Part shown: positions 9,186 to 64,000 of the stretch, piece after piece
How positions within the stretch are numbered: position 1 is the stretch's first letter
Layout: each line of letters starts with the position of its first letter
Virus record (IMG/VR): IMGVR_UViG_3300043313_001192
Coordinates: 25,598-89,597 of that record
DNA: 64,000 nt
Source: a virus
Strand: one strand, 5' to 3'
Notes under the pieces: model-generated
Told to the model about the DNA's origin: nothing
Database searches by the model: none
Seen by the model: only the letters and a program-made list of their open reading frames with translations
Translations under genes and position numbers: made by a program

Positions 9186-9310
9186 ACTGACGTTTACGCA
9201 GCTGCCCAACCCTCAAGCGCGCCTTCAGCGTTGCGCAGTTGTGCGTCGTCTGGACAGTGTGGTATGCTTACTTCAGTAAGCGACACAGAGACAACCGAAG
9301 GGAAACCCCC
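9186..9310 (+). promoter_or_regulatory. promoter cassette 12
   Basis: 16-mer 9186-9201 with the ACGTCACTGACGT extension (9181-9193); GTCTGGACAGTG then TGG-TATGCT with the hexamer at 9263-9268; dyad GCTTAC-TTCA-GTAAGC 9266-9281; leader ACAACCGAAGGGAAA before ATG 9311. Confidence 0.75.
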
Positions 9311-15108: not shown

Positions 15109-15393
15109 ACTGACGTTTACGCAGACAGGGCTGTACCCGCAACCATGTTGGGGCAAACACCGAGGCTGTGCGAGGCTCAGCCTGCTGAGCCGCTACGCCT
15201 TGCTGAGCAGGGGTTCCCTGCCAGCAGATTTGTGTCGGACCCCTGCCCTAGGGTTGCCCTGTTAGGCAAACCCACAGGGACAGAACAGACTAGACCAGTT
15301 CGTGCCCACCCGCCCCTCGATTATGGAGTGGCGCAATGGTGTGGTAGGCTCTGGGTACAGAGCCAGACAAGTGAACGACGAAAGGACACGCAC
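15109..15393 (+). promoter_or_regulatory. promoter cassette 18 (distant site)
   Basis: 16-mer 15109-15124. The plus-strand promoter lies 235 bases away: TTATGG (15321-15326), 18-base spacer, TAGGCT (15345-15350) preceded by TGG; dyad GGCTCTG-GGTA-CAGAGCC 15347-15364; leader GAACGACGAAAGGACA before GTG 15394. The 16-mer here may serve the divergent minus-strand promoter. I see no gene in the 200 bases between. Confidence 0.65.
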
Positions 15394-16731: not shown

Positions 16732-16736
16732 GACTT

Positions 16737-16830
16737 CCGGCCCGCGCTGTTGCAAGCGCGGGCCGGGGGACCGTTCACAGTGAACGGCTCTGTAGTGCTG
16801 GCGCCAGTCCGCGTTCGGGCTGGCGTCAGC
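16737..16830 (+). terminator. three tandem hairpins
   Basis: CCGGCCCGCGCT/AGCGCGGGCCGG (16737-16766) is a perfect terminator-like stem. It is followed by CCGTTCAC-A-GTGAACGG (16771-16787) and GCTGGCGCCAG/CTGGCGTCAGC (about 16798-16830). Three stems in a row between the ATPase and the VWA gene could tune their expression ratio. Confidence 0.6.
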
Positions 16831-16843
16831 CAGGAGAGCAGCT

Positions 16844-17012
16844 ACTGACGTTTACGCAGGACAGCGCGACGTGCGCGAGGGGCGCAGGACGTGGCAAGAT
16901 CAGCAGTGCCGAGGGATGCACCGATTAGGTAATGACGAGCCAGTGGTGTAAACTGAGGTTACGAGGTCAGGGTGACTCCCCGACACAGACAGAACGACGA
17001 AAGGACACGGCC
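16844..17012 (+). promoter_or_regulatory. promoter cassette 19
   Basis: 16-mer 16844-16859; TTAGGT (16925-16930), 18-base spacer, TAAACT (16949-16954). Only a weak dyad (CTGA...TCAG, 16953-16970). Leader GAACGACGAAAGGACA before ATG 17013. Site-to-promoter distance is longer than usual (104 bases). Confidence 0.65.
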
Positions 17013-18842
17013 ATGGGCCACATCTTGTACGGCAAGGTCGAGAGCACTGTGAACAAGAGCGACGACGACTGGTACGGCGTCGCGGCGCAGGTCGGCAAGT
17101 TCACGAACAAGCGTGCGCACCGCAGCGATATCACTGCTGTCGTGTCCAGCACTGCTGGCATGGGCGCTCCCGCGTGCTTCATCCCGAGCCTTGCCGAGAT
17201 GCACATCAACACCGAGGCCGCTCCCATGGGTCCTCCCGACAAGGTCAATCTGGACGACCGCATGTGGATGCTCACCTACGCCCCGAGCGTGGGCGCGTGC
17301 ACCCACGAAGCGGCACACGCCCGCCACACGCACTGGGACCCCCGCGACCTGATGGAGAACTACGAGGCCACCCGCAAGATGGTCGACGTGATCACCACGC
17401 TGGAAGAGCCGCGCATCGAGGCGCAGGCGCTGCGCTTCCACCCTGACTCGCGTCCCTTCCTGCGAGGCTGCGCGATGGAGATTGTCGGGCGCGACTTCAA
17501 GATCAGCGACACCCGCTACGGCGCGGCGACTGCTGCTGGTCTGCTGCTGGCCCGCGTGGATGCCAAGGTGCTGACCAAGGCCGAGGCGCGTACGTTCCGC
17601 CGCGATATCGCTGCGGTGCTGGGCGACACGCTGGACGAGTTGGAGCCGCTGTGGCAGCGCTTCCTGCGTCTGCACGACCACGACTACGCGGGCATGGTCG
17701 AGGTTGCCGCCGCATGGCTGGACGTGCTGGGCGAGGACCCCGAGGACGAGTCCGATATGGCGGGCGAGTCGATGATGGGCGAGAGCCTGTCCGGCGAGGG
17801 CGAGGGCGAGGGCGAGGGCTCTGGCAAGGGCGAGGGCGAGGGCGACGAGTCCGAGGGCGAGGCGTCCGGCTTCGGGGACAAGATCATGGGCAAGGTGCAC
17901 ATCACCGAGTCCAAGATGGACAAGGAGGTCACCGAGGCTCGCGGCGAAGAGCGCGCCGAGCGTCGTCGCGCCGAGTCCAAGGCCGACGCCGAGCGCCGCA
18001 AGTCTGCCGAGGGTCCGCACGCCGAGGCGTTCACGCACACCGGGCTGCACGGCTACTCACCGGACGGGTTCGCGCACTACTCGCACTCGCGTCCCCCGAC
18101 CGCCGACGAGCGTCGTGCGGCCAAGATGCTGGCCCGCTCGTTGGAGAAGATCGACTACCGGGACCGGGCCGTGACCAAGGTCCGCAGCGTGGTTCCTCCC
18201 GGCCGTCTGGTCGGGCGGGCTGCGGTGCAGGCCGACGCGATGATCGAGCAGGGCCGGGACGCCTCTGGTGTCGAGGTCTGGTCGGGCAAGCGCCGCAAGC
18301 GGGTCGAGTCCACGCCGCTGACGATCGGGTTCCTCGGGGATATCTCGGGGTCGATGAACGCGGCCATGGAGCCGCTGGCATCGAGCCAGTGGGTGCTGAG
18401 CACCGCAGGCGCGCACGTGGACGCCAAGGTCGCCAGCGTGCACTTCGGTGACCGGGTGCACGGCATCACGCCCGCTGGGGTCCGCGAGAAGGACGTGCGG
18501 CTGTTCGCTCCCTACGACGGCAGCGAGGCGTTCAAGGACGCGGCGCTGGCGATCGACAAGGAACTGAACCTGCTGGACGGGCGGGGTGCTCGCATCCTGT
18601 TCATCGCCAGCGATGGGCAGTACGTGAACGGCACCGATATGGCCTACGCCCGCACGTGGATGCCGCTCGCCAAGCGCAAGGGTGTCGCGGTGATCTACCT
18701 GAACTTCCTCGGGTCGATGAACCCCACCGGCGTGGGCGGTGCCAAGGTGATCGACTGCGTCCGCAAGTCGCCCGCCGAGGTCGCCGCGCTGTGCGGCAAG
18801 GCCGCACTCGCGGAGGTCCGCAAGATCGACCAGCGGGTCTAG
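17013..18842 (+). CDS. VWA-domain protein with HEAAH motif, 609 aa
   Basis: N-terminal region (about 1-240) carries HEAAH at residues 98-102, a zincin-type HExxH signature. A low-complexity Gly/Glu stretch (about 262-290) and a highly charged coiled segment follow. The C-terminal VWA domain (about 430-600) has the MIDAS motif DISGSM at 443-448. This resembles the CobT/VWA partner of MoxR ATPases; such peptidase-like domains joined to VWA domains occur in uncharacterised bacterial proteins. It is encoded directly after the MoxR gene but from its own promoter. It may deliver a substrate to the ATPase. Whether the HEAAH site is catalytic is unknown. Confidence 0.82.
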   Translation: MGHILYGKVESTVNKSDDDWYGVAAQVGKFTNKRAHRSDITAVVSSTAGMGAPACFIPSLAEMHINTEAAPMGPPDKVNLDDRMWMLTYAPSVGACTHEAAHARHTHWDPRDLMENYEATRKMVDVITTLEEPRIEAQALRFHPDSRPFLRGCAMEIVGRDFKISDTRYGAATAAGLLLARVDAKVLTKAEARTFRRDIAAVLGDTLDELEPLWQRFLRLHDHDYAGMVEVAAAWLDVLGEDPEDESDMAGESMMGESLSGEGEGEGEGSGKGEGEGDESEGEASGFGDKIMGKVHITESKMDKEVTEARGEERAERRRAESKADAERRKSAEGPHAEAFTHTGLHGYSPDGFAHYSHSRPPTADERRAAKMLARSLEKIDYRDRAVTKVRSVVPPGRLVGRAAVQADAMIEQGRDASGVEVWSGKRRKRVESTPLTIGFLGDISGSMNAAMEPLASSQWVLSTAGAHVDAKVASVHFGDRVHGITPAGVREKDVRLFAPYDGSEAFKDAALAIDKELNLLDGRGARILFIASDGQYVNGTDMAYARTWMPLAKRKGVAVIYLNFLGSMNPTGVGGAKVIDCVRKSPAEVAALCGKAALAEVRKIDQRV

Positions 18843-29219: not shown

Positions 29220-29515
29220 CCCGCTCGGCAGGACTGGCTCGGCAAGTCGGGGCGAGGCTTGAGTTGGCATGGCAGGGCTGTTGCGGTTCGGCAGGGTGCG
29301 GTGTGGTGAGGTCCGCCGTGGTGAGGCGGGGCAGGGCAGTCAAGGCTTGGTGCGCCCCGGCACGGTTTGGCTGGGCAGCCGCGACTCGGTGCGGCTCGGC
29401 ACGGCTAGGCATGGTGAGGCAGGCGGGGTCCGGCAGGGCACGGCAGCGTTTGGCAGGGCATGGCAGGCACGACTAGGCATGGCAAGGTGAGGCGTGGCGA
29501 GGCGCGGGGGAACCC
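29220..29515 (+). repeat. degenerate pentanucleotide array, G-rich on plus strand
   Basis: About 300 bases in which GG recurs nearly every 5 bases (GGCAN/GGTGN type, for example GGCATGGCAGGGC and GGCACGGCAGCG). It is not coding by codon pattern. It is the reverse complement in type of the 3.5-kb array at 42.4-45.9 kb. It lies between the divergent genes at 28746 (minus) and 29553 (plus). Confidence 0.85.
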
Positions 29516-29552: not shown

Positions 29553-29948
29553 ATGGGAGGGAGCAAGCGCGGCACCGTATTACGGTCCCTGACCTGCCAC
29601 TACTGCGGTGGCAAGGCCGGGACCGAAGACCACGTCGTGCCCCGCGCCGACCTCCCGCGGCCCCTCTCGGTGTTGCCCTACTGGTTCCGCAGCCAGTTCA
29701 CCGTCCCGAGCTGCAAGGACTGCAACAACGCCAAGAGCTGGTTCCGCAGCGACTGCGCCTGCCAGCACTGCACCTGGGTTTGGGGCACCGCCCGCGCGCT
29801 GTTCCTGCCCGAGGGCTACACCGAGCGCGGCTGGATCGCGGTCCAGAAGAACCCGACCATCGCAATGCCCCTCGCGGTCCCGCGCCCTGACCGGAGCGCC
29901 TACCCCGGCACTCGGTCGGACCGCGAGTCCCAGGCCCTGTCGAACTAG
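29553..29948 (+). CDS. HNH endonuclease, 131 aa
   Basis: ATG 29553; TACTCT lies 6 bases upstream, so the message is probably leaderless. CHYC (15-18) and CKDC (54-57) form the zinc pair of an HNH fold. D26-H27 in TEDHVVPRA and the N58-N59-A-K stretch occupy the catalytic positions. A second cysteine group (CACQHC, 68-73) follows. Stand-alone HNH proteins serve as homing or packaging-associated nucleases in phages. It sits next to the small G-rich array, which could be its target or a trace of its mobility. Confidence 0.75.
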   Translation: MGGSKRGTVLRSLTCHYCGGKAGTEDHVVPRADLPRPLSVLPYWFRSQFTVPSCKDCNNAKSWFRSDCACQHCTWVWGTARALFLPEGYTERGWIAVQKNPTIAMPLAVPRPDRSAYPGTRSDRESQALSN

Positions 29949-41709: not shown

Positions 41710-41885
41710 CGGCGCGCGAGGTCCGCCACGCAGACGTAGTTGCCGGGCGTGCCCATCGGCTTGCCGCACATCGCGCAGTGCGTCGTCGGACCCTCGGTAC
41801 CGAGATGTTCGGGGCAGACGTAGTGCGAGTCGATGTTCTTGACGTGCCCGCCCTTGGCGCAGTGGCCGTACTTGCGTCGTGCCAT
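41706..41885 (-). CDS. small multi-Cys zinc protein, 59 aa
   Basis: ATG at 41885 overlaps the TGA of the upstream gene. Six Cys/His-rich positions in 59 residues (HCAKGGHVKN, YVCPEHLG, HCAMCGKPMG, YVCVAD), probably two zinc knuckles. Function unknown. Confidence 0.66.
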   Translation of the reverse strand: MARRKYGHCAKGGHVKNIDSHYVCPEHLGTEGPTTHCAMCGKPMGTPGNYVCVADLARR

Positions 41886-42352
41886 CAGCCCGCCTTGTTG
41901 TCGCCAGCGATGTCGTCCAGGATCTCCTCGACGAAGCCCTCCATGTGCTGGTAGCGCTTCTTGAAGGTGGTCCAGTCGCGGCGCATCTGCTTCATCATCA
42001 GCTCGCGCTGGATCGGGTCCAGGATGATCTCCTCGATCGGCTCGTAGGTCGACGTCGGCGAACCGTCCGCCTCGCGCCGTACCCAGAACGCCCGGAGGTC
42101 GGCACGCTTGTTGCCGATGTCCGCCTTGTACTTCACCCGCAGCAGGTTCCCCGCCTCGTGCAGCCGCCACTTCCGCGCCGCCTCGGTGTCGTCCCAGGTG
42201 AACCGATGGTGCAGCGGGTGGTCGGGATCAGCAGCTTCCTCGACCACCACCTCGGGCGTCAGCGTGCCGCGCTTCTCGCGGATCTCCAGCAGCACGTCGC
42301 GCAGGTTGTTCGGCGTCTGGCCCTCAGTGGCCTCGTCGGTTCCGTTCGTCAT
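41885..42352 (-). CDS. conserved phage protein, 155 aa
   Basis: ATG at 42352. Contains HRFTWDDTEAARKWRLHEAG and NLLRVKYKAD, a pattern seen in a widespread phage family of unknown function. Helical, basic centre and acidic ends. It is the first gene after the 3.5-kb pentanucleotide block, so its transcript either starts at the block's edge or passes through it. Confidence 0.72.
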   Translation of the reverse strand: MTNGTDEATEGQTPNNLRDVLLEIREKRGTLTPEVVVEEAADPDHPLHHRFTWDDTEAARKWRLHEAGNLLRVKYKADIGNKRADLRAFWVRREADGSPTSTYEPIEEIILDPIQRELMMKQMRRDWTTFKKRYQHMEGFVEEILDDIAGDNKAG

Positions 42353-42394: not shown

Positions 42395-45300
42395 CTCTGT
42401 TCCGTCAGCAGCTTGCCGTGCCTGCCGAACCGCGCCTTGCCGCACCCACCTATCCATGCCGGTCCCAGCCTCACCACGCCTGCCTTGCCCGGCCGCGCCT
42501 AGCCTTCTCACACCGCGCCTGCCCCACCATGCCGAGCCTGTCCACACCTCACCCAGACGGGCCTGCCCAGCCACGCCTTGCCTTGCCGCACCTGACCGTG
42601 CCACGGCTGCCTGGCCGCACCACACCCAGTCGTGCCAGATCCCGCCTAGCCATCCCCTGCCTGCCTCGCCCTGCCTGACCGCACCCCACCATGCCTAGCC
42701 CCACCGCGCCTGCCATGCCGTACCAGACCTTGCCGAGCCAACCGGGCCTGCCTTGCCAAGCCAACCGCACCTAGCCCTCCGCGCCGCGCCTGTCCATGCC
42801 TAGCCCTGCCTGCCGCGCCATGCCGTACCGGAAGCTACCGGGCCGGAACACGCCGGGCCGCACCTAGCCATGCCCTGCCGAGCCTGCCTACCGTGCCGTG
42901 CCGTACCGGGCCTAGCCCCGGTCGACCATGCCTTGCCTGCCAAGCCCAACCCGGCCATGCCTAACCCTGAGCACCGCGCCACGCCTGCCTGACCAAGCCG
43001 CGCCTGACCGAACCAAGCCCCGCCGAGCCCACCTCGCCTGCCGGGCCTGGCCGTGCCTGGCCTAGCCGCACCTATCCATGCCCCGCCTGCCAAGACCCGC
43101 CGTGCCGTGCCATCGGTACCGAGCCCTACCAAACCACGCCTGCCGCGCCGTGCCAGGTGCTGCCGTGCCGACCACGCCTAACCTTGCCCCGCCTGCCCCG
43201 CCATGCCCAGTCGCACCCTGCCGCGATCGCCATGCCCAGCCGTGCCGTTCCTGCCATGCCGGACCTCGCCCTCCCGGCCATGTCGTGCCCTGCCCCGCCT
43301 GCCCTGCCGAGACTGGCCGAGCCATGACATGCCTTGCCTCGCCTGGCCGTGCCGAGCCCGGACCCGCCTGCCTTGCCATGCCGGGCCGGGCCGTGCCTAG
43401 CCGACCTAGCCTTGCCTGCCGTGCCCCGCCTAGCCTGACCGAGCCATACCCCGCCTGCCCAGCCACTCCTTGCCGTGCCTTGCCATCCGCGCCTCGCCTG
43501 CCGAACCGGACCCCGCCTTACCCAGCCACACCGACCAAACCTCGCCTGCCAAACCTGGCCTTGCCGTGCCACACCAAGACGAACCTGGACATGCCCACAC
43601 GTGCCCTGCCGACCCGAACCACACCGAGCCATGCCTGCCGCGCCACGCCTTGCCTTGCCATGTCAACCGGGCCTGGCCCTGCCGCCCGCGCCTTGCCACG
43701 CCTGCCCGACCACACCACGCCTTGTCCTGCCCACCATGTTCCGCCTGCCGGGCCTAGCCCTGCCTTGCCAGACGATCCTGGCCGCGCCTGCCCTGCCTTG
43801 AGCGCCTTGCCTCGACCCGCCGTGCCAGGACTGCCGGACCGTACCGTGCCCAGCCTCACCACGCCGTGCCTAGCCGCAGCTGCCGGACCGTGCCTTGCCC
43901 AGCCACTCCATCCGTACCTAGCCTGCCGCGCCCTGCCTTGGCCCGCCACGACCCGCCCGGACTCGCCCCGCCTAGTCATGCCTGCCCAGCCGAACCACAC
44001 CTAGCCTGACCATGCCCTGACCTGCCTGCCGAGCCACGCCGTACCGCGGAAGCCACGCCGATGCCTTGCCCCGCCTGCCCCGCCGCACCTAGCTGCACCG
44101 CACCAAGACCCGCCTGCCGCGCCTGGCCGAACCTTGAATGCCTTGCCCTCCGCGCCGCACCGAGACACACCTGCCCAGCCCCGTCGTGCCATGCCTGACC
44201 GCGCCCCGCCTGACCAAGCCTGCCTTGCCGAACCGGGCCGCACCATCCTCGCCATGCGGTGCCGTGCCCCGCCTTGCCTGCCGTGCCGCGCCCTGCCAAA
44301 CCTAGCCAAGTCGTGCCCTGCCATGACGAGCCGTGCCGGACCTGCCTCACCACGCCCAGCTCCGCCGAACTCCCCGAGCCCAGCCATGCCTGCCACACCC
44401 GGCCTTGCCACACACTGCCGCGCCCACCGATCCTGGCCGCGCCCAGCCGTGCCTGCCCGGCCCCGCCGCACCTCGCCATGCGCTGCGATACCACGCCACG
44501 CCCTCCGCGCCTGCCTGGCCCAGCCACACCGTCCCGTGCCACGCATCCCAGACCACGCCATGCCTGCCTCACCTAGCCCTGCCAAGCCCGGCCAATCCTG
44601 GGCGTGCCGGGCCGAGCCAAGCCTGCCGGACCAAGACGTGCCATCCCCTGCCGTTGCCATGCCTGGACCTGCCGCACCGAGCCACGCCTGCCTGACCGCA
44701 CCAGACCCGGCCGCACCCTGCCTAGACCACCGCGCCATGCCTGCCAGGCCCTGCCTCGTGAAGCCCAGCCCCGCCTCGCCGTGCCCAGCCAATCCGCGCC
44801 TGCCCCACCGATCCAAGCCCTGCCTTGCCTAGGCAAACCACGCCTGCCTGGCCTAGCCGGACCAAGCCGAACCCCGCCTACCCCGACCCGCCTGCCGGAC
44901 CGCACCTTGCCGTCCGCGCCGCGCCCAACGATGCCCAGCCACGCCTGCCGAACCGTGCCACGTCGTACGCCGCCAAGCCGGACCCAACCTGCCTCGCCAC
45001 ACCCAGCCTGACCGTGCCCCGCTTCACCGCGCCTGCCGCGCCTCGCCCACCAAGCCATCCTCGCCGGGACGCATCGCACCTCGCCTGCCGCGCCACGTCA
45101 TGCCACAGCTCGCCGCGACGTACCAAGCCTCGCCTGCCATGCCTCGCCTCGCCTCGCCTAGCCCAGCTCGCCATGCCCAGCCCGGCCTGCCGGGCCGCAC
45201 CGAACGATGCCGAAAGCCACCAAGCCCACCATCCCGAGCCGCACCACGCCTGCCACGCCCCTCCGAGCCTGACCACACCATGCCCTTCCTCGCCTGCCGT

Positions 45301-45898
45301 GCCCGACCCTGCCAACCACTCCTAGCCCTGTTCACCATGCGATGCCTGCCCGGCCGGACCGGACCGCGCCGTACCCGCCCCTGCCAATCCCTGCCTAGCC
45401 CTGCCTGCCACGCCGTGCCCAACCAAGCCCGGCCGGTCCCTGCCATCCCTTGCCATGCCAAGCCTGCCGTGACCCGCCTTGCCACGCCCCGCTTGCCCCG
45501 ACGCGCCTGGCCTTGCCTAGCCTGCCGAACCGTGCCCAACCGAACCAACCGCACCGTGCCCGGCCAACCCTGACCGCGCCAAGCCTGCCAAGCCCCGACA
45601 CGACTAGCCATCCCGCGCCTTGCCCACCACGCCTGCCAGACCAAGCCAAGCCGTACCATCCGCGCCTTGCCGCCCACGCCGTGCCGCGCCCCGCCTGCCA
45701 TGCCGTGCCGCGCCTCACCGCGCCAAGCCTCATCACGCCATGCCCAGCCCAGCCTGCCGGACCTGGACCCGCCGTGCCGTGCCTAGACCTGCCTGCCATG
45801 CCGCGTCGACCGGGCCAAGAATCCCATGCCCCGCCCCGCCTAGCCTGCCCCGCCGAGTGCTGCCCTGCCGCGCCTAGCCTTGCCATCCGTGCCAGGGC
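42395..45898. repeat. 3.5-kb degenerate pentanucleotide array
   Basis: The plus strand is an almost unbroken run of CC-starting pentamers (CCTGC, CCGTG, CCTAG, CCATG, CCGAG and so on); the minus strand reads GGNNN with GG every 5 bases. The open frames in it are by-products of a period that is not a multiple of 3 and contains few stops: they occur in all frames and read as Gly/Ala/Arg or Pro/Cys/Leu low-complexity peptides. No gene, tRNA, promoter or terminator can be supported inside. It separates the leftward tail genes from the leftward middle genes. Confidence 0.92.
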
Positions 45899-45955: not shown

Positions 45956-46624
45956 CTACTTGATCTCCACCGAGCGGGTCGGGTCGATCATGAAGGTGCC
46001 CATGTCGCCCTTCTTCTCCGGACGCCACTCGCCGACGCCCACACCCAGGCCACCGGCCTCGATCAGCGAGAGCACCGACTCCCTGGTCAACATGGACTTC
46101 ACGTAGGTCACTTCGAGGGTCGTCGACCACTCGGTGAACTGCGGCCGGTAGCGCAGGTCGGTGCCGCCGTTGCCGACGCGCACGACGTCCTCACGCATGA
46201 TCGGCTCGCCCTCGATCCGGACCATCATCTGACCCTCGACCTTGGACATCTCGCCGCTGAAGAACAGCGTCTGCCGGAGGCTGACCATGGTCACCGACTT
46301 GTCGAAGAACCGGGCCGCGGAGACGGTCGCGGCCTTGAACGCGATCGACGGGAAGCCGTAGCCGCCGTCGTCCATCTTGTAGGCCGCGGCCTCGTAGTCG
46401 CCCTCGGGATCCTTGGGCGCCTTCGGGCTCTTGCGGCCCTGCATCGCGTCGAGCATCTGACGCTTCGCCTTCTCCGAGAACTTGTGCATGATCAGCGGCG
46501 CGGATCCGACGATCGGGATCAGCAGCGTCTCGGTGCCGATCCGGGAGATCTCGATCGCCGGGGCGCTGTCGTCAGCTGCGGGAGGAGGAGTCGCTGCGGT
46601 CTTCTTGGCAGGCTTCGTGGCCAT
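45956..46624 (-). CDS. conserved phage protein, RAMP-like ending, 222 aa
   Basis: ATG at 46624 behind AAGGACGGAACGACAC. After a Lys/Pro/Ala-rich start comes a folded domain: LLIPIVGSAPLIMHKFSEKA, GGYGFPSIAFKAATVSAARF, MREDVVRVGNGGTDLRYRPQ, and a Gly-rich end VGVGEWRPEKKGDMGTFM. This resembles a family common in actinophages. The Gly-rich closing loop recalls Cas7/RAMP-type RNA-binding proteins, but I regard that as only suggestive. Function unknown. Confidence 0.72.
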   Translation of the reverse strand: MATKPAKKTAATPPPAADDSAPAIEISRIGTETLLIPIVGSAPLIMHKFSEKAKRQMLDAMQGRKSPKAPKDPEGDYEAAAYKMDDGGYGFPSIAFKAATVSAARFFDKSVTMVSLRQTLFFSGEMSKVEGQMMVRIEGEPIMREDVVRVGNGGTDLRYRPQFTEWSTTLEVTYVKSMLTRESVLSLIEAGGLGVGVGEWRPEKKGDMGTFMIDPTRSVEIK

Positions 46625-46716
46625 GTGTCGTTCCGTCCTTGAGGTTGTGTTCCCCACCTTGGGGAATCAGGTGACGGCAACGTAGCACAGGGCCTAGACC
46701 ATGGTGTGGAGGTTGG

Positions 46717-53401: not shown

Positions 53402-56400
53402 TCAGGTCGAGTAGGTTGAACCGCAACCGAGGTTCGCGTTTTGGGCTACTCCACCCATGGCACTGGTGAGGTAGAAGGACCCATTCGTGTTGCAGTAGAT
53501 CTGACACAGCCCCGCAGCGGAGACAGCAGGGAAGGGCGTGTTCAGGATCGGTGCCCATGTGGTGTCGGACATGGTGCCGCACAGTGTGTCGGTGGTGTTG
53601 CCGTTGACACTGCTGCCCGCAACTGCCGCACCCGTCCGGACGAAGTTGAGGTTCCCCGAAACCTGACGCCCAGCCCTGCGCCACGCCTGACTTGAGACGC
53701 TCCATCCGGTCGCTGGGTTCACTAGGGTGGATCGGCTCTCTTCTCCACCCGCCGATCCGGCAACCACGATGTTGCCAGTAACGAACCTGACCGCTCCGGA
53801 GTCACCATTCTTCACAGCGACCAAGATCCAGTTGTTCGGGACGGAGAAGTCTGAGGTGTAGTTCGTGACCCGGAAGTTGGCGGGGATGGAGGTGACAGGA
53901 CCTCCATAGGGGATCTCGTACCAGAGCGCATCCCAGTTGTCCATGTGAATCCCCGCTGCCACGACGGACCGGGGAAGCGCACCCCCGAAGTTGGCGATCG
54001 CGGTGCCGAGGGGAGGCATGGTGATGTCGAAGTTGCCGTCAGTGGTGAAGTTCAGCCCGCGCCCCATCGAGATCAGCACGAACCGTGCCGTCCACTTGAT
54101 GTTGTACCCGGTGTCCATGATCTGTGCGCCACCACCGATGATCTGGGACTGAGACCTGATCGAGTAGTAGAGCTGCTCGAACGCCTTGCCGGACAGCGAG
54201 GTGGCACCCGAGCCTCCGACGTCGAGAGCCTCCAGGTGCGCGTAGCCGTCACCGGTGAGCTTGATCTTCGGCAGTGACCCGGTGCCGATGGCGTTGGACT
54301 CGATCGAGGCTGGAGCCTGAGCGACGAAGCTCGTGTTCAGTGGCGGTGGGCCGCTGCCGCCGGTGAAGATCGGGGTATCGACACTCAGCACCGTGGCCAG
54401 GTCGGCAGGCTGCTGGTTCTGTCTGATGAAGTCGGTGCGGACCGGGGTCGTCGCCATCCGGGTCAGGAAGAACCGGAACGAGTTCACGTCATCGACAGTG
54501 CGGGTCGTACCGCGCCCGGCAGCAGGGTCAGGCAGACCAGGCACCGTCACGGTGAGCCGGGACCGCTTCTTCATCGTGATCGAGGAGTACACCGAGGCGT
54601 TCGACTCCTGGATAGTCCCTGCCGAGTCGTACCAGGTGAACGTTCCCCACCAGATCGGTGAGTCGGTCGATGCCCAGGTGATCGGCGTGTAGTTGTACAG
54701 CTGAGGACCGTCAGTAGCCGGTGCGACCGTGAACCTGGTGAAGGCACCGGTAGCTAGATCACCACACGCACCGACGGACCGGGTAGCCGGAACCGCTGGG
54801 AACTCCAGGTCGGGCAGCCGCACCGGAGACGCAGCGTCGTTGAAGACGTAGTTGTTCACCGTCCCGTGCAGCACCCAGATGTCTCGGTCGACGGCCTCGA
54901 AACCCATCCGTTGTGAGGACCCGTAGGTGACGCCGATCAGGGTCTCGTCCTGGGCGAAGAACGAGGACGCGATCACCTTGTTCGCGCTCGGGGTGATCGT
55001 GGTGTCGGTGAACGCCAATGTGCTCAGGGTGATGTCTCCCTGCGGCCATGCGAGCCACATGTTCCGCTTGGCTTGGCAGACCATGTGCGCGCGGGTAGCA
55101 CCGGTCGCGGAGAAGCACCGTCCGATGGGCCACTGCCAGAACCAGGAGAAGGTGCCGTCTTGGCGTTCGGCCTTCTTGATGGGAGCACGGGTGCCATCGG
55201 TGAGCATCGCTGAGTCGTCCCAGCTGGTGAGCATCATCTTCTCGTCGCGTGCCGCGACGTACCCCGGATCACGGAAGAGTGCCCTGGTCACCTGTCGCTC
55301 AAGCCCGCCGACCACGATGGCGGTGCTCTGCTCGAACGTGTACTGGGAGTTGGTGGCGCCGTCAGAGTTCGTGACCCTCGGCGGACGCCAGATGGTATCG
55401 GCCTTCCTGAGCACGCCATTGTCGAAGAACGTGTTCGCGGTCCTGAACGAGCCCGAGGATTCGGCACTGTCCAGATGCAGACCGTAGAACGGGTCGCACC
55501 ACTGACCCCGCGCGAATGTAGAGGAGGGGTAGTCAGTACCCAACGAGGGACCGCTGGTAGCACCCACGGTCTGGGTCTGCAGGATGGTCTTGGACCCCAT
55601 CGCGAAGGTGGACTGGCCTCTCACCTCCATGCCCTGGCTGACCGTGAGCCCGCGTGCGATGAGAACCGCGTCGATCAACGGCGTCTTCTGCGGGTCGTTG
55701 GGCAGGTCCACCCGCACCGAGACGCCATCGGGGCCGTACTGCTTGAGCCCGTCGCTGGACAGCTCCATCCGCTGCCCGGACTCTGCGGTCTTGAGCTTGC
55801 CCAGGATGGCCAGGTCAGCGTCGATCTTGGCACCCGTGATCTGCAGTGCGTCCACGACGTTGGTGTAGATGTAGCCATCATTGATGTCTGCATCGACGAC
55901 TTGGCGCAGGACTGCCGAACCAGCAGTACCGGGAGCAGCCAGGTTGAACCCGCCACCGATCTTGCCGTCCTTGGCGATGATCCGCACGTAGTAGATGAAC
56001 GAGTTGTCCTTGACCAGGAAGTCGCCGTTGGCCAGCTGTTCACGGATGGTGTAGGAGGACGAGGTGGTCTCGATCTGCTTGGTGGTCGAGTCAGGGGTGA
56101 ACGTAGCTCCGGCAGTAGAGCAGTGCACCTCGTAGGTCACCGTGTCGTGGTTGAGGATCGCAGGCCACTTGATCCCCAGCGAGGAGATAGAGCCGGTCAC
56201 CACCGGTGTGGGCGAGGACGCCGGTGCGAGGGCATCGAGGGTGGCTGCGGTGTACCCCGCGTCAGCCTTGGCCTGAGCTGCTGCGGTGTCGGCAGCCACC
56301 TCTTCGGGGGAGGGAGAGTAGAACGTCGCGTTCTGACCCAGCTCCAGCTGTGGCTGGAAGATGTAGATGTCACCAGCGGCACCGGTGAGATCGAAGTCCA

Positions 56401-59400
56401 CGAAGCAGTAGGTGGCGTTGACCGAAGTGACCCTCGACCTGACGTAGCCCTTCTGCCAGGCCGACGTGGCTGTGAAGGCGGTTACGTCCTGGTCGTTGAT
56501 GTCGACGGCGAATCCGTAGTTGGTGCCAGTGGCCGACTTGTACCAGAACGAGACCGTGTGCCAGCCGATCTGCTTGACCTCGAAGGCGCGGTAGATCCTG
56601 TTAGTAGCCGCTGGTGCGTAGAGCCGGATCACCGTCTCGTTGATCGGAGTGCTGGTTCCAGGGGTGTTGTAGGGGCCAGGGACCGAGCTGACAGTCGAGG
56701 TCGTCTGACCTGCGCCCATCCATGCGTACCGGACGTTGCTGTCCTGGAACGTCCGAGACTTGGTGAACAGGTTGGTCCCACCGACCGTCACCCGAACGGC
56801 GTCGTCGCCGAGCACCACGTCTACCCAGGAGCCGGTGCCGAGTGCACTCGCGCGCCTGAGTCTGTTGCTCTGGTCGGTGACTACCCACAGGTCACCGACA
56901 GCAGTAGCGGTAGGAGTGGCAGCGAACGCTGCGTAGAAAGTCGAGACCTTGGTGTTGACCTGGGTCTGCAGCGTGGTCACCGTGCTCTGCGGTGCTGCGT
57001 TGTACGCCTGGATCTCCTGGTCGGTGGCAGCCCTGAACGAGAGCTGGTCGAAGACGATGTTCTTGGTCCCGTCCCCGATGCCGGAGTAGTTGCCCATCAG
57101 GTAGGTGACGTAGTTCGTGAAGGTGCCGGTCGCACCCACAGGTCGACGCATCACCTGAGAGACCCGGTACCACTTGCCAAGAGTAGGAGCGGGGACCGCA
57201 ACAGCCAGGTTGAGTGTCGTTCTGTTGGGAGTGAGTCCCAGCCAGTCGAGGAGGAGACCTGCACCCGCGATCGTTCCGGAAACGAGACAGAAGTCCATGG
57301 TGCACATCACGTAATCGGTGTTCGACTGCTCTCCCATCAGGCCAGTGCCGGTTGAGCCGCTTGCTCCGTAGACACCAGACTGGCCACCGGCAGTGACGTT
57401 GAATCTGATGGCGTTCGGAGCAGTCAGGGTTGTCGTGGTCTCTCTGACACCCGAGCCGCCGTAGGCGACGTACCCGTTCGGGAGCGCTGCAGCAGCAGGC
57501 CAGTTGTCGAAGAGCGGGTTGTTGCTCCAGTTGTCCATCAGAATGGCTGCGTTGGCAGTCGACTGAGCCGCAGCGATCGCACTGTCCTGGACGCCCACCC
57601 AGCCACCGGTGCCAGAGGCACTGGCTCGGGAGAGCCTGTTGCCGTTCGCCGTGTCCACCCACAGGTCGCCGATGGCGGTCGCTGTCGGGGCGGTGGCGCT
57701 GTAGAAGGTGGTGATCTTGCCGTTGACCTGGGTCTGCAGTGTGTCGACGGTTCCTTGCGAGGCGGCGTTGTACGCCTGGATCTCCTGGTCCGTCGCTGCT
57801 CGTGCAGAGAACTGGTCGAAGATGATGTTCTTGGCCGTGACCGTTCCGAACCCGCCGTAGCCACCCATCACGTAGCCCTCCATGTAGGAGAACGTTCCGG
57901 TGAAGGTAGCTGGGCGCTTGATGGTCCGAGTGACTCGATACCACTTGTTCAGGGCCGGTGATGGCACAGCAGTAGCCAGCAGAATGTTGGCTTCGCCGTA
58001 GGCAGCCACGGTGTTGACCCATCGGACCAGATGCCCAGCGCCAGTCAGGTCACCAGAGACCAGCATGAAGTCGATGGTCACGGTCACGTAGTCGAGATTC
58101 GGCAGTCCAGACCACGAGCCGGTCGAGGCGAAATACCCGGACCCACCTGCAGTGAGGTTCCACCGCACTGCGTAAGGATTCGTACGCGTCAGCGTGGTCT
58201 CCTTGACCACAGTGCCTGATGCTCCGGAATACCCAGTCGGCAGGGCCTGTGCGGTAGGCCAGTCATCGAACATCGGGTTGGTCGTCTGAGAGTCCTGTAG
58301 AGACGCAGCGGTAGCAGCACTCATCGCGCTCGCGCTGTCCTGGACCAGCACCCAGTTGCTAGCACCCACTGCGGTAGCTCGGGAGAGCCTGTTGCCGTTC
58401 CCGGTGTCCACCCAGAGGTCGCCGACAGAGAGCGCTACAGGAGCCGAGGTCTGGTAGAAGGTGACGATCTTGGTGGACGCCAACGCAGAGGCGTCCGCCC
58501 CAGCAGTGATCTCGTTGAGGCTGATGTTCGCGACCGCCTGCATCGGCGTGCCGGTCGAGGGTGCGTAGTTGGTCAGGAACCCGATCTGCACCGTGGCCGT
58601 CGCCATCGGGAACTGGGTCGTCGCGGACGACGGCCCACCGCCGGGCAACGCGCCCTTGACTGTCCGCCCGGAGAAGCGTGTCCAGGTCGTCGGGCCATCA
58701 GCGAGAGCCGCGCCAATGTACATGAACGAGCCACCCGAGGAGGCGTTGGACACCTGCGTACCAGCCGGGATCGCCGGTCCAGCCCACGGCACCCGGAGCG
58801 TGATCACGTTGCCGCTGATCGCCCCGTCGGCGTAGCTGTCATAGCCGTAGTGGTTGCGGGAATAGGTGTTGGCTGGCCACGCCTTCCCGCCAGGATCGAC
58901 ATAGTTCCAGAAGATGAAGGCGCGCAGGTGTGTGCTCGACCCGACTGCATTGCTCCAGTTCGCAGCTGAGGTCAGCGTCACCGTGGTCGCACCAGGGTTC
59001 AACGCGACAGCAAGTGTGGTCAAGGTGTTCGGCTGCGCCATGTAGTGGTTCGGGCCGATGGCGAGGCCATAGGCGTCGTAGGGAGACAGGTAGGAGTAGA
59101 ACTTGGCGGTGCCGGAGACCTGCCGGTAGTCGTAGGCGAACTCGTAGATCTGGTTCGGATCGACCGGGATCAGCTCGTCCATGGTTCGCTGCGTCGCGCC
59201 AGCAGGGAACTGGAACGAGCCCACTGCACCGGTGGGGGCATCAGACTTGCTGTACGTGGTGATCGAGAAGTTGGTGTTGTTGCCCAGCATTCCCGTGCCG
59301 TTGGTGACCAGGTTCAAGCCACGCGACTGCACGTAGGACTGCATCGTTGCCGCCAGCGCCTGGTCTTGGTTGACCACCCAGGCAGAACCCGTCCAGCGAT

Positions 59401-62400
59401 AGAGCTTGTTGCCGTCGTCGGTGTCGAACCACAGGTCACCGTCGTCTCCCGCGAGCATCCCTGTGGGAGCACTGGTCTGGAAGAAGGACCTGACCTTGCC
59501 ATCAGCAGTCGACTGAGCAGTACCCGCAGCAGCCAGGGCGCTCGACGCAGTGCTCTGCGCAGCGGTCGCGGCTGCGTAGGAGGAACTCTTAGCGACAGCC
59601 GTGTAGGCGAAGGTCGCGTTCGAGTAGGTGATCTTGTTGGTGGTGTACAGCTCCATGTTCACCAAGTAGGTGGGCTCGGTGATGGCCCATGGAGCGAGCG
59701 GGGTGGCGACCACCGGTACTGCAGGCGCTGCTGATCCAGTGGTCACCTGCGCGTAGTAGGGAGTGACCGCAGTGATGCTGACACCTGGTGCGCCAGTGCC
59801 ACCAGTCGAGCCGGTTGCTCCGGTCCTGCTCACCGTCCAGGCGAACTTCTTCGTGAAGGCCACCCCATCGACCGTGACGGGGATGGTCAGCTCACCGCTC
59901 GTGGCCACCAGTGCGGTGGTCACGGTGACGGTGACGGTAGCTGTCGTTGTGGCGTTGTTGGTGATCGCCGTGGTGAGCCCGGTGACTTGTCCGGTGATCG
60001 TCCCGATCGTCGCCGGGAAGAGCGTCGCTGCCTTGTAGGCGATCACCTGCGCAGTAGTGCTCCCGGCCACCGCGGCTGTCTCCGTGCCGGGGAACACCTG
60101 TGCTTCGTTGGTGAGGATCACCGTGTAGGCATCAGCACCAGCAGGGCCTTGTGGGCCAGTGCCACCAGTACCGCCGGTCGCACCGTTGAGGACCTTCGCG
60201 ACCGTGAGCGTGTCAGCTACCCCGGCACCGTTGCTCATCCGCACCGCGATGGTGCTGGCCGTCATCGTGCTACCGGTGATGGTCACGACATTTCCGGCAA
60301 TCGACACACCCGCCGGAAGTGACGTGGAGAATGCCGCACCGTTGACGCTGTAGTCCCACACCGTGATCGTGGTGTTCACCGGCGTGCCCGTGACCACGGC
60401 AGTCGCAGGTGTGGTCGCACCCCCAGCTGCAGGAGAGGTCAGCGCCTGAGAGGTAGAGGTCAGCGTGATCGTGGCAGCGTTGGCTCCCGGCACTCCTTGC
60501 GGACCCTGGATCAGAGACCACTCGTAGTCAGTCGTGATGACCGACTCGGTGGGCGTCGTCTTGTTGTAGGCGATGCCCATGTAGGTCATGCCGACCGGGG
60601 AGTCGTTGATCCCAGCGCCCAGCACTGACGTGGCGTACTTGATCCAGGTGTAGGTAGCTTGACCGTTAGGCCCGATGGGGCCTTGCACTCCCTGGTTACC
60701 TTGCGGTCCTTGGGTGGAACTCCATTCGTAGTCGGTGTAGATGCTGGACTCAGTGGCCGTGGTCTTGTTGTACGCGATGCCCAGGTACGGCTTGCCAGCA
60801 GGCAGATCGCTCATCCCCGTGGTGGGAGTATCCGCGTACTTGACCCAGGTGTAGAGCTGTTGCCCGTTTGGCCCGATCGGTCCCTGTACGCCTTGGGATC
60901 CGGTGTAGCTCACCGACCAGGCGAACGTCTTGGTGAAGGTGATCCCGCCCACGGTGATCGGGACCGTCAAGGTGCCGCTGGTGGTGACCAGTGCGGTAGT
61001 CACCGTGACTGTGAAGCCAGCAGTGGCTGTGCCGTTGTTGGTCAGTGCCGTAGACAGGCCGGTGACCTGACCGGTGATCGTGCCAATCGTGGCGCTCTGC
61101 TGGACCGTGCCCTTGTAGGCGATCACCTGGCTGGTGGTCGATCCCGCGAGCGCGGCTGTGGTGGAACCGGGGAACACTTGAGCTTCGTTGGTCAGCAGGA
61201 TGGTGTACGCATCTGCGCCCGCAGGACCAGTGCTGCCAGTACCACCAGTCGGGCCTGTGCCACCTGTTGCACCGTCGAGGACCTTGGCGACCGTCATGGT
61301 GTCGGTCACACCAGAGACCCCGGTGGCGCGCACAGCGATCGTGCGGGCGGTCATCGTGGCACCGGTGATGGTCGCTACGTTGCCCGCGAGAGACACGCCC
61401 GCGGGTGCCGTGCCGCTGAACACACCACCATCGACTGAGTACGTCCAGCCCGAGATGGTGGTGTTGGTCGCCGAGCCGGTGATCGTGCTCGTGGCTGGGG
61501 TGGTCACCAAAGAAGCGAAGGTGAAGTTGTCCCACCTGACAGAGTTGACCCCGTATCCGTAGAAGCCGTGTCGCGTGCCGGTGTGTGTGGCATCGGTAGT
61601 GGTGAGGACCACCACGTCGTTGATCTTGGCTTGGAGAGTCGACCCGGCTGCTGTGACCGAGATCTTGTCGCCCGAGACGACCGTGGCAGTGGAAGTTACC
61701 AAGCTTGTGTAGGTCTCAGCACCTGCCGGACCCGCGACCCTGTAGAACTGCACGGTTCCGTTGGCATTGGCGACCAATAGGTAGCCGTTCAGATTGGTCA
61801 AGTTGCGCCGGAACGACAGTCCTCCGCCAATCCCCGCTCCGCTGATGACGTAAGAGATGTTGATATCTGAACTGCCACACTCCACGTCCGCGTAGGAATG
61901 TCCTCCCGTGGCACCTGCCGTAGCGAGGTACGCCTTGCCGCCGCTCACTCCCCACACTGCGCTGTTGTCATTGCGCCACGCTTGTCCACCGGTCTCGGTG
62001 GTGCCGAGCGAGGTGGCCGAGTCGGCACGAGTGAACGAGTCGAGGATCGTGGGGGCCGGTGAGGCGAGCGCCTGGGTCGTCGCGACCAGGTCGACGGTGG
62101 AAGCAGCAGCACCGGTGGCGCCCGTGTTGCCCGTGGCACCGGTGAAAGCCAGCGCCCAGGTGAAGACCTGGTTGAACGTGATGCCACCCACGGTCACCGG
62201 GATGGTGAACGTGCCCGTAGCGGTGGCAAGTGCCGTGGTGACTGTGAACGTGATCAGTGGTGCAGTGGTCCCGTTGTTGGTCACCGCAGCGGTGATGCCG
62301 GTAGCGCCTCCGGTGATCGTCCCGACCGTCGCAGTCTGCGCCGTGGTGCCCTTGTAGGCGATGACCGTGGTGGTCGCCGTCGTTGCCAGTGCGTTGGTGA

Positions 62401-64000
62401 GCCCAGCAGCAAAGCTCTGGGACTCGTTGGACAGCAGCACCGTGTACGCGTCAGCACCCGCCGGGCCAGTTGCTCCGGTGCCACCAGTGGAACCGGTCGC
62501 GCCATCAGAGACCTTCGCCACGGTCAACGTGTCCATGGCACCTGAGGCAGTGATCGCCCTGACCGCGATGGTCTTCGCGGCCATGGTCGCGCCAGTGATG
62601 GTGACCGTGTTGACCGATCGGACCACACCAGGAGGAGCTGTCGTGACCCAGGCGGCACCGTCCACGCTGTAGGCCCAGCCAGCTGTGGAGTCAGGGATCG
62701 TCGTGTTCGTAGGCGTGCCCGTGATCACAGCAGTCGCGGGAGTGGTGGCCCCACCGGCCGCTGGTACCGCGAGCACCTGTGTCGTGGCGGTCAGGTCGAC
62801 CATCGTCGCGGGAGTACCAGGGATGCCTTGCGGTCCTTGGATGAGCGACCACTCGTAGTCAGTGGTCACTGAACTCTCAGCGGGCGTGGTCTTGTTGTAC
62901 GCGATACCCATGTAGGTCTTGCCAGCGGGCAAGTCGTTCAGCCCAGCACCGAGCACGCTGTCGGCGTACTTGATCCAGGTGTACGTCGGCTGGCCGTTCG
63001 CACCAGCTGGACCCTGGATACCCGTGTTGCCCTGGGGGCCTTGGATCAGCGACCACTCGTAGTCGGTGTAGACCGAGGACTCAGTCTGGGTCAGCTTGTT
63101 GTAGGCGATGCCCATGTAGACCTTGCCCGCAGGAAGGTCGTTCATGCCAGTGGTCGGGGTGTCCGCGTACTTGACCCAGGTGTAGGTGGGCACCCCGTTG
63201 GCGCCGGTAGGACCTTGGATGCCCTGGGAGCCTTGTGGTCCTTGCGCACCCTGAGGACCCTGGATCAGCGACCACTCATAGTCGGTGGTGATGATCGACT
63301 CAGTCGCAGTCGTCTTGTTGTAGGCGATGCCGATGTAGGTCTTGCCCGTGGGGTCGTCACTGATCCCTGCTCCAAGCACGCTCGTGGCGTACTTGATCCA
63401 GGTGTAGGTGGGCTGTCCGTTGGCTCCCGTGGGTCCCTGGACACCCTGGTTGCCTTGAGGTCCCTGGATCAGAGACCAGTCATAGTCGGTGTAGAGACTC
63501 GACTCGACGGCGCTCGCCTTGTTGTACGCCAGACCCATGTAGACCTTGCCCGCAGGCAGATCGTTCATCCCGGTCGTGGGAGTGTCGGCATACTTCAACC
63601 ACGTGTAGGTGGGCTGACCGTTGGGACCAATCGGTCCTTGGATGCCCTGTGATCCAGTGGCACCAGCAAGGCTGAGTGACCACACGAAGGTCTTGGTGAA
63701 GGACTTGCCATCCACTGTCAGCGGGACCGTCAGGGTGCCGTTGACCGTGGTCAGTGCGGTGGTGACCGTGACCGTGAAGCCTGCGGTGCTCGTCCCGTTG
63801 TTGGTCAGTGCAGTCGTCAGCCCAGAGACTTGGCCGGTGATCGCACCGATGGTGGCCGGGATCTGCACGCCGCCCTTGTACGCGACGATCTGACTGGTGA
63901 CGCTGGTGGCGATGGCAGCCGTCGTCGTGCCTGCGAAGGTCTGCGCCTCGTTGGTCAGCAGCACCGTGTAGGCATCTGCACCGGCGGGGCCAGTGGGGCC
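53402..64000 (-). CDS. giant modular minor tail protein, truncated at the right edge
   Basis: Open to the window end, so the N-terminus is missing; at least 3,532 residues are visible. Ig-like modules (TAGFTVTVTTAL...GTLTVP...TKTFVWSL type) recur several times and are separated by Gly-X-Y linkers (GATGSTGGTGATG). There are six copies of a module of about 55 residues ending TDYEWSLIQGPQG. Later come at least four GDLWVDTxNGNRLSR repeats, an Fn3-like unit, a prophage tail-protein-like segment (IYTNVVDALQITGAKIDADL) and a beta-rich C-terminal receptor-type domain (FYLTSAMGGVAQ). Probably the central fibre/tip protein at the host-contact end. Confidence 0.88.
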   Translation of the reverse strand, partial: GPTGPAGADAYTVLLTNEAQTFAGTTTAAIATSVTSQIVAYKGGVQIPATIGAITGQVSGLTTALTNNGTSTAGFTVTVTTALTTVNGTLTVPLTVDGKSFTKTFVWSLSLAGATGSQGIQGPIGPNGQPTYTWLKYADTPTTGMNDLPAGKVYMGLAYNKASAVESSLYTDYDWSLIQGPQGNQGVQGPTGANGQPTYTWIKYATSVLGAGISDDPTGKTYIGIAYNKTTATESIITTDYEWSLIQGPQGAQGPQGSQGIQGPTGANGVPTYTWVKYADTPTTGMNDLPAGKVYMGIAYNKLTQTESSVYTDYEWSLIQGPQGNTGIQGPAGANGQPTYTWIKYADSVLGAGLNDLPAGKTYMGIAYNKTTPAESSVTTDYEWSLIQGPQGIPGTPATMVDLTATTQVLAVPAAGGATTPATAVITGTPTNTTIPDSTAGWAYSVDGAAWVTTAPPGVVRSVNTVTITGATMAAKTIAVRAITASGAMDTLTVAKVSDGATGSTGGTGATGPAGADAYTVLLSNESQSFAAGLTNALATTATTTVIAYKGTTAQTATVGTITGGATGITAAVTNNGTTAPLITFTVTTALATATGTFTIPVTVGGITFNQVFTWALAFTGATGNTGATGAAASTVDLVATTQALASPAPTILDSFTRADSATSLGTTETGGQAWRNDNSAVWGVSGGKAYLATAGATGGHSYADVECGSSDINISYVISGAGIGGGLSFRRNLTNLNGYLLVANANGTVQFYRVAGPAGAETYTSLVTSTATVVSGDKISVTAAGSTLQAKINDVVVLTTTDATHTGTRHGFYGYGVNSVRWDNFTFASLVTTPATSTITGSATNTTISGWTYSVDGGVFSGTAPAGVSLAGNVATITGATMTARTIAVRATGVSGVTDTMTVAKVLDGATGGTGPTGGTGSTGPAGADAYTILLTNEAQVFPGSTTAALAGSTTSQVIAYKGTVQQSATIGTITGQVTGLSTALTNNGTATAGFTVTVTTALVTTSGTLTVPITVGGITFTKTFAWSVSYTGSQGVQGPIGPNGQQLYTWVKYADTPTTGMSDLPAGKPYLGIAYNKTTATESSIYTDYEWSSTQGPQGNQGVQGPIGPNGQATYTWIKYATSVLGAGINDSPVGMTYMGIAYNKTTPTESVITTDYEWSLIQGPQGVPGANAATITLTSTSQALTSPAAGGATTPATAVVTGTPVNTTITVWDYSVNGAAFSTSLPAGVSIAGNVVTITGSTMTASTIAVRMSNGAGVADTLTVAKVLNGATGGTGGTGPQGPAGADAYTVILTNEAQVFPGTETAAVAGSTTAQVIAYKAATLFPATIGTITGQVTGLTTAITNNATTTATVTVTVTTALVATSGELTIPVTVDGVAFTKKFAWTVSRTGATGSTGGTGAPGVSITAVTPYYAQVTTGSAAPAVPVVATPLAPWAITEPTYLVNMELYTTNKITYSNATFAYTAVAKSSSYAAATAAQSTASSALAAAGTAQSTADGKVRSFFQTSAPTGMLAGDDGDLWFDTDDGNKLYRWTGSAWVVNQDQALAATMQSYVQSRGLNLVTNGTGMLGNNTNFSITTYSKSDAPTGAVGSFQFPAGATQRTMDELIPVDPNQIYEFAYDYRQVSGTAKFYSYLSPYDAYGLAIGPNHYMAQPNTLTTLAVALNPGATTVTLTSAANWSNAVGSSTHLRAFIFWNYVDPGGKAWPANTYSRNHYGYDSYADGAISGNVITLRVPWAGPAIPAGTQVSNASSGGSFMYIGAALADGPTTWTRFSGRTVKGALPGGGPSSATTQFPMATATVQIGFLTNYAPSTGTPMQAVANISLNEITAGADASALASTKIVTFYQTSAPVALSVGDLWVDTGNGNRLSRATAVGASNWVLVQDSASAMSAATAASLQDSQTTNPMFDDWPTAQALPTGYSGASGTVVKETTLTRTNPYAVRWNLTAGGSGYFASTGSWSGLPNLDYVTVTIDFMLVSGDLTGAGHLVRWVNTVAAYGEANILLATAVPSPALNKWYRVTRTIKRPATFTGTFSYMEGYVMGGYGGFGTVTAKNIIFDQFSARAATDQEIQAYNAASQGTVDTLQTQVNGKITTFYSATAPTATAIGDLWVDTANGNRLSRASASGTGGWVGVQDSAIAAAQSTANAAILMDNWSNNPLFDNWPAAAALPNGYVAYGGSGVRETTTTLTAPNAIRFNVTAGGQSGVYGASGSTGTGLMGEQSNTDYVMCTMDFCLVSGTIAGAGLLLDWLGLTPNRTTLNLAVAVPAPTLGKWYRVSQVMRRPVGATGTFTNYVTYLMGNYSGIGDGTKNIVFDQLSFRAATDQEIQAYNAAPQSTVTTLQTQVNTKVSTFYAAFAATPTATAVGDLWVVTDQSNRLRRASALGTGSWVDVVLGDDAVRVTVGGTNLFTKSRTFQDSNVRYAWMGAGQTTSTVSSVPGPYNTPGTSTPINETVIRLYAPAATNRIYRAFEVKQIGWHTVSFWYKSATGTNYGFAVDINDQDVTAFTATSAWQKGYVRSRVTSVNATYCFVDFDLTGAAGDIYIFQPQLELGQNATFYSPSPEEVAADTAAAQAKADAGYTAATLDALAPASSPTPVVTGSISSLGIKWPAILNHDTVTYEVHCSTAGATFTPDSTTKQIETTSSSYTIREQLANGDFLVKDNSFIYYVRIIAKDGKIGGGFNLAAPGTAGSAVLRQVVDADINDGYIYTNVVDALQITGAKIDADLAILGKLKTAESGQRMELSSDGLKQYGPDGVSVRVDLPNDPQKTPLIDAVLIARGLTVSQGMEVRGQSTFAMGSKTILQTQTVGATSGPSLGTDYPSSTFARGQWCDPFYGLHLDSAESSGSFRTANTFFDNGVLRKADTIWRPPRVTNSDGATNSQYTFEQSTAIVVGGLERQVTRALFRDPGYVAARDEKMMLTSWDDSAMLTDGTRAPIKKAERQDGTFSWFWQWPIGRCFSATGATRAHMVCQAKRNMWLAWPQGDITLSTLAFTDTTITPSANKVIASSFFAQDETLIGVTYGSSQRMGFEAVDRDIWVLHGTVNNYVFNDAASPVRLPDLEFPAVPATRSVGACGDLATGAFTRFTVAPATDGPQLYNYTPITWASTDSPIWWGTFTWYDSAGTIQESNASVYSSITMKKRSRLTVTVPGLPDPAAGRGTTRTVDDVNSFRFFLTRMATTPVRTDFIRQNQQPADLATVLSVDTPIFTGGSGPPPLNTSFVAQAPASIESNAIGTGSLPKIKLTGDGYAHLEALDVGGSGATSLSGKAFEQLYYSIRSQSQIIGGGAQIMDTGYNIKWTARFVLISMGRGLNFTTDGNFDITMPPLGTAIANFGGALPRSVVAAGIHMDNWDALWYEIPYGGPVTSIPANFRVTNYTSDFSVPNNWILVAVKNGDSGAVRFVTGNIVVAGSAGGEESRSTLVNPATGWSVSSQAWRRAGRQVSGNLNFVRTGAAVAGSSVNGNTTDTLCGTMSDTTWAPILNTPFPAVSAAGLCQIYCNTNGSFYLTSAMGGVAQNANLGCGSTYST

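Follow-up and report, generated by a model that had tools for sequence, protein, structure and literature searches.

A 3.5-kb block of degenerate GGYNN repeats in a viral genome is probably the guide-RNA array of a VIPR system

The block of GG-rich short repeats described here, which occupies 3.5 kb of a 64,000-nucleotide stretch (the window) of a 177-kb IMG/VR virus record, is in our judgement (probability about 0.93, from sequence) the guide-RNA (vrRNA) array of a VIPR (Viral Interference Programmable Repeat) system. This reading is based on the GGY/NN grammar of the block, on a Vipr homologue recognized by both sequence and fold, on their conserved, co-oriented linkage, on a 1-nt-skip signal in related arrays together with the motifs decoded from the window's own guides, and on the presence of the same features in the published VIPR system (PMC13142463). 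The latter was described in April 2026, in a preprint that is the sole paper on VIPR we found, and CRISPR guide recognition is proposed to descend from it. In the preprint, Vipr is a RAMP protein and vrRNAs are made of alternating GGY and NN motifs; the NN base-pair with DNA, and each unit passes over one base of the target, usually the wobble base of a codon. The code and the resulting repression were shown for SUSP1, which has four vrRNAs, each with a 3' tail (PMC13142463).

Table 1. Position of the putative VIPR locus, selected guides and a second array in the window
Feature	Position	Strand	Basis
Candidate vap: conserved partner gene, 155 aa, FTWDDTEAA motif	41885..42352	-	phrog_15946; relatives beside arrays
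Putative vrRNA array, ~720 GGYNN units, ~68 GGCA-ended guides	42395..45898	-	unit parse, GGCA segmentation, shuffle control
Guide 60, A[IM]VGLGGTGAY[IM]L[DE], reverse-strand decoding	42815..42884	-	decoding, genome match
Guide 39, [IM]YG[DE]RGVGKSA	43928..43982	-	decoding, L279 match
Guide 29, TRFTLAHE[CW]AHV, reverse-strand decoding	44395..44453	-	decoding, IMG/VR matches
vipr, 233 aa, predicted RAMP-fold guide-RNA-binding protein	45956..46657	-	PDB 36pp match, model fold, phrog_4652
Small array, same GGYNN units and GGCA breaks	29227..29505	+	unit-pattern score; 5' of HNH-like gene

Repeat grammar of the block

Parsed into units on the minus strand, the block consists of ~720 back-to-back GG[C/T]NN units, 610 of them 5 nt and 113 of them 4 nt long, the latter accounting for a mean period of ~4.84. 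G occupies the first position of 95% and the second of 90% of the units, position 3 is C (72%) or T (21%), and positions 4 and 5 are near random. Identity at lag 5 was 0.518, compared with 0.331 ± 0.007 in dinucleotide-preserving shuffles, and the periodicity analysis gave no peak at lag 3 in the block (0.245). A unit model scored 922 over the block, ≤12 in 100 shuffles and 6–9 in the flanking genes, and set the extent of the block at ~42413 to 45893. An earlier account made from the letters only (the sequence-only reading) had therefore located the block almost exactly, and its periodicity of GG or CC at about 5 bases over ~3.5 kb, its prediction of a period of 5 and not 3, and its view that the block does not read as protein are all borne out, there being no 3-base frame. 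The GGNNN unit that it proposed was correct in the paired G and the approximate length; it overlooked the pyrimidine at position 3 and the 4-nt units.

GGCA makes up 68 of the 113 4-nt units and splits the block into ~68 segments, typically of 8–13 units each; the median before a GGCA is 9 units, some segments being shorter (5–7) and one having 17. The same punctuation is found elsewhere: in 234 other blocks, the distance from one GGCA to the next peaks sharply at 39, 44, 49, 54, 59 and 64 nt, that is, at 5n+4. An internal 4-nt unit is present in 38 of 69 segments of the window array, as against 172 of 1208 elsewhere. Such internal units, which include GGTG, GGAT and GGTT but seldom begin with GGC, occur in the window array at about four times the frequency seen in other arrays. 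In guide 29, an internal GGTG still supplies an NN that makes sense, namely for the first His of HExxH, and in this single case the unit is read as GGNN without the Y.

Most NN are common to the two members of the adjacent pairs 11/12 (45299–45405), at an offset of 3 units, and 40/41 (43836–43923), at an offset of 1 unit; each pair reflects either one target sampled in overlap or a partial duplication. Near-identical direct repeats with unique spacers were absent from the block. Rfam gave no match in the window, and none at E<0.1 between 41800 and 46700, hammerheads included.

A conserved locus of vipr, array and partner gene

The block had been described as gene-free, which is true of the block itself, but it lies within a conserved three-part locus together with both flanking genes. 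The product of the upstream gene matched a single PDB chain, 36pp_D ('SUSP1 Vipr protein'), with an E-value of 1.2e-5, or 3.2e-12 when a profile of 44 sequences was used. Its AlphaFold2 model (pLDDT 91.8) was matched by Foldseek to Csm3-type RAMPs of CRISPR effector complexes (E 1e-5, probability 1.0), and its C-terminus carries a conserved glycine-rich motif, GxGVGEWRPEK. As judged from sequence and predicted structure, the protein is a Vipr homologue of the ancestral RAMP kind. Translation more likely starts from the internal ATG at 46624. The gene is the only vipr in the 177-kb record, and its family, phrog_4652, has no assigned function in PHROGs. The same is true of phrog_15946, to which the product of the downstream partner gene belongs; the model of this protein (pLDDT 84.7) had no match in the PDB. 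The partner gene recurs beside arrays and is a candidate vipr-accessory (vap) gene, with no match made to vap1-6. Searches of Pfam, PADLOC and NCBIfam with both genes adjoining the array returned nothing useful and no cas family.

The degenerate pattern with one GGCA break was found in at least 120 stretches of IMG/VR and at least 117 stretches of bacterial genomes, although many of the bacterial matches that lack a scored block are probably chance or coding matches and not all are true arrays. Related blocks are present in 31 phage records, comprising mycobacteriophages of the Cheoctovirus group and Gordonia phages, and in the loci examined from this set GG lies on the sense strand of the neighbouring genes. 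A megablast search with the first 25 kb found no match among known phages. In ~100 loci of viruses and prophages, block, vipr and partner gene recur together in one orientation. Of the 197 loci that have a block, the fetched flank included vipr in 136 and the partner gene in 109, and orientation was shared in all 170 block–vipr pairs. The gene order is vipr, array, partner in the window and in phages Ecliptus and Pipp; Quico and Donkeykong have the array ahead of vipr. Since these isolate phages and UmaThurman were sequenced independently and carry such a block beside the same genes, features of this kind do not arise from faulty assembly, and the check on sister phages suggested by the sequence-only reading has a positive answer. 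In three of them a 'hypothetical protein' call covers the array (Donkeykong gp48, L005 5978–6364; UmaThurman gp40, L006 4986–5309; Pipp gp43, L289 3111–3380), and these are probably spurious gene calls over vrRNA arrays. Our analysis also places vipr genes and short arrays in isolate phages that have laboratory hosts, namely mycobacteriophages and Gordonia phages, whose annotation gives them as hypothetical proteins or omits them.

At 3481 nt with 68 GGCA, as it stands in the metagenomic record, the window array is by far the longest among roughly 235 examined and more than twice the length of the next (1586 nt, 30 GGCA), the median in the sample being 275 nt and some of the other arrays being cut by locus ends. 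VIPR arrays may therefore reach the size of CRISPR arrays inside a virus.

Reading code of related arrays

The code was tested on related arrays, a guide being defined as the series of NN from one GGCA to the next. The search covered ~2.4 Mb of fetched DNA in which array regions were masked. With low-complexity guides removed, a filter picked after an unfiltered test in which such guides scored in the controls too, five matches at E<0.01 were obtained with a skip of 1 nt. Skips of 0, 2 or 3, two shuffled controls and guides with their units in reverse order gave none. The best matches are in-frame and cover full segments from GGCA to GGCA, and GGCA therefore marks the ends of guides in related arrays. 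One guide from Mycobacterium szulgai (L220 3514–3696) falls on the vipr gene of another phage (L041) with 2 mismatches in 26 bases and on those of Quico and Donkeykong with 3 in 26, which by its sequence is a case of VIPR against VIPR. Other guides of related arrays match in-frame DPPYNVAYEG, presumably a methyltransferase motif, GKNVVMIAHSKI and NKAIDVFSQYKF. Taken as sequence matches, these results support the 1-nt-skip code on related arrays; GGCA as a guide-end rule, in turn, lets guides be extracted from sequence.

Candidate targets of the window guides

The guides of the window were decoded by reading NN as codon positions 1 and 2, on either strand. For guides 29, 39 and 60 the decoded motifs (Table 1) are ones that we take to be, respectively, the ImmA/IrrE metalloprotease motif, the P-loop of a Sak4-like ATPase and a ThiF/E1-like motif. 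Nine units of guide 29 were matched exactly in eight IMG/VR contigs, in every case in-frame in a gene with RFTLAHECAH. Over all 24 bases these matches have 3–4 mismatches and the G+C content is lower (0.48–0.59), for which reason the viruses concerned are probably those of other hosts; with ≤3 mismatches allowed, guide 29 had no match in four genomes. Guide 39 agrees at 21 of 22 bases with an in-frame site in a Sak4-like ATPase gene (L279), read as IYGERGVGKS, whereas a second 9-unit match (L278) looks like chance. Over a whole-IMG/VR search we estimate that the former match would by itself be near chance; what gives it weight is that decoding of the guide had revealed the P-loop ahead of the search. 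For guide 60, one of 395 genomes from the class to which Gordonia belongs has an in-frame site in a ThiF-like gene that agrees at 26 of 28 bases; the reversed control gave none, and IMG/VR had no exact 10-unit match.

Exact IMG/VR scans with guides 60, 46, 31 and 51 gave no match, no exact full-length target of any window guide was found in the searches run, and no convincing self-target turned up elsewhere in the 177-kb record of the virus itself. For the window guides, the 1-nt-skip reading thus consists of decoded motifs and partial matches only, and the genes matched by guides 29, 39 and 60 are likely to be homologues of the predicted targets.

Proposed mechanism and alternatives

In the mechanism that we propose, the array would be transcribed leftwards, probably with vipr and the partner gene, and Vipr subunits, with their RAMP fold, would line up on each guide. 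GGY would be bound by the protein and remain unpaired, and each NN would pair with two bases of the double-stranded DNA target, after which one target base would be skipped. One 5-nt unit would then correspond to one target codon with the wobble base ignored, as we infer from the SUSP1 code (PMC13142463). The 4-nt GGCA would close each guide, with processing at or near it, and the next guide would begin directly, so that 3.5 kb would hold ~68 guides. The likely outcome would be that genes belonging to rival phages or mobile elements are bound and transcriptionally silenced. The array could conceivably also be an accumulating memory in the manner of a CRISPR array, which takes up copies of rivals' DNA as new guides at its GGCA boundaries and so gives one large virus dozens of targets; the ~68 guides and the two adjacent, register-shifted similar pairs (11/12 and 40/41) hint at this, and we put it forward tentatively, as the less probable side of the question. 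Guide acquisition becomes testable through the arrays of close relatives.

With GG every 4–5 nt on one strand, (GGNNN)n could form many two-tetrad G-quadruplexes and act as a barrier to transcription or replication, yet such a barrier has no need for a pyrimidine at position 3, for GGCA breaks at 5n+4 or for a RAMP gene alongside, nor does it predict that NN should spell protein motifs of other genes; we consider it highly improbable. Much the same low credence is due to a microsatellite of 5-nt units without function, which slippage would have expanded and mutation worn down. The tandem period near 5 and a few similar segments (such as guides 11/12, 40/41 and 45/61) are in its favour, but GG is kept at 90–95% while NN is close to random, and the same grammar stands beside the same genes in distant viruses. 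Of the roles suggested in the sequence-only reading, a structured non-coding RNA of the minus strand was the right class, namely VIPR guide RNAs beside vipr; the quadruplex barrier, replication origin, packaging site and recombination substrate found no support, the spacing of GG being explained as the scaffold of Vipr-bound vrRNA. A TRAP-like 11-subunit ring, an annealing-protein ring and rut sites were weighed before the match to Vipr was obtained and were then dropped.

A different question is whether the VIPR array is aimed at genes or defences of the host and not at competing phages. The best match of guide 60, a ThiF-type gene in a bacterial genome that may belong to the host or its defences, would fit this, but the gene types indicated by guides 29 and 39 occur in phages, and the targets of phage-borne VIPR are, in the preprint, mostly satellites and prophages (PMC13142463). 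We regard host-directed interference as unlikely, and silencing of rivals' genes as the likely function of this locus.

Comparison with known systems

The locus shares with other VIPR loci a Vipr RAMP homologue, a GGY/NN tandem region beside vipr on the same strand and guides of comparable length, typically 8–13 units here against 9–16 repeats in VIPR. It resembles most closely VIPR type II (Escherichia phage SUSP1 and a Pseudomonas fulva prophage; PMC13142463, PDB 36pp), with which it has in common the Vipr homologue, GGY/NN vrRNA units, and a minimal phage-borne locus of vipr, partner gene and array; the 1-nt-skip code is supported on related arrays. In contrast to the four separate RNAs of type II, the window has ~68 guides in one continuous 3.5-kb array, in which guides end in GGCA and internal 4-nt units are frequent; its partner gene was matched to no published vap. 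The invariable 3' tail of type II is also missing, as the guides directly abut with only GGCA constant between them and leave no room for a tail. The preprint (PMC13142463) also names staggered arrays, in which vrRNAs overlap; these are likewise continuous multi-guide arrays and possibly of the same architecture. Unlike in VIPR arrays interspersed with hammerheads, no hammerhead was matched between the guides of the window locus by Rfam at E<0.1. Class 1 CRISPR effectors (Cas7/Csm3 RAMPs) share the RAMP fold and a multi-guide array and, by analogy, a protein filament on a guide RNA with periodically unpaired positions; the block differs from them in lacking CRISPR repeats and spacers, in having two adjacent genes without cas families and in its 5-nt unit with a predicted non-contiguous code.

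Other features of the window

The second, small array of the window (Table 1) has no vipr beside it and could, we suggest, be served in trans by the vipr of the record. The small gene directly 3' of it (29553–29948, plus strand) is HNH-endonuclease-like (phrog_10378, E 1.2e-5). A 423-bp tandem repeat (62838–63649; 1.9 copies, 78% matches) lies inside a 3520-aa open reading frame (53402–63964, minus strand). On the plus strand, 9239–10198 encodes an ArdC-like anti-restriction protein that also has an IrrE/M78 peptidase domain, and 15145–18842 encodes an AAA_5 (MoxR-like) ATPase and, after it, a protein weakly similar to CobT; the two resemble a cobaltochelatase pair, here carried by a phage.
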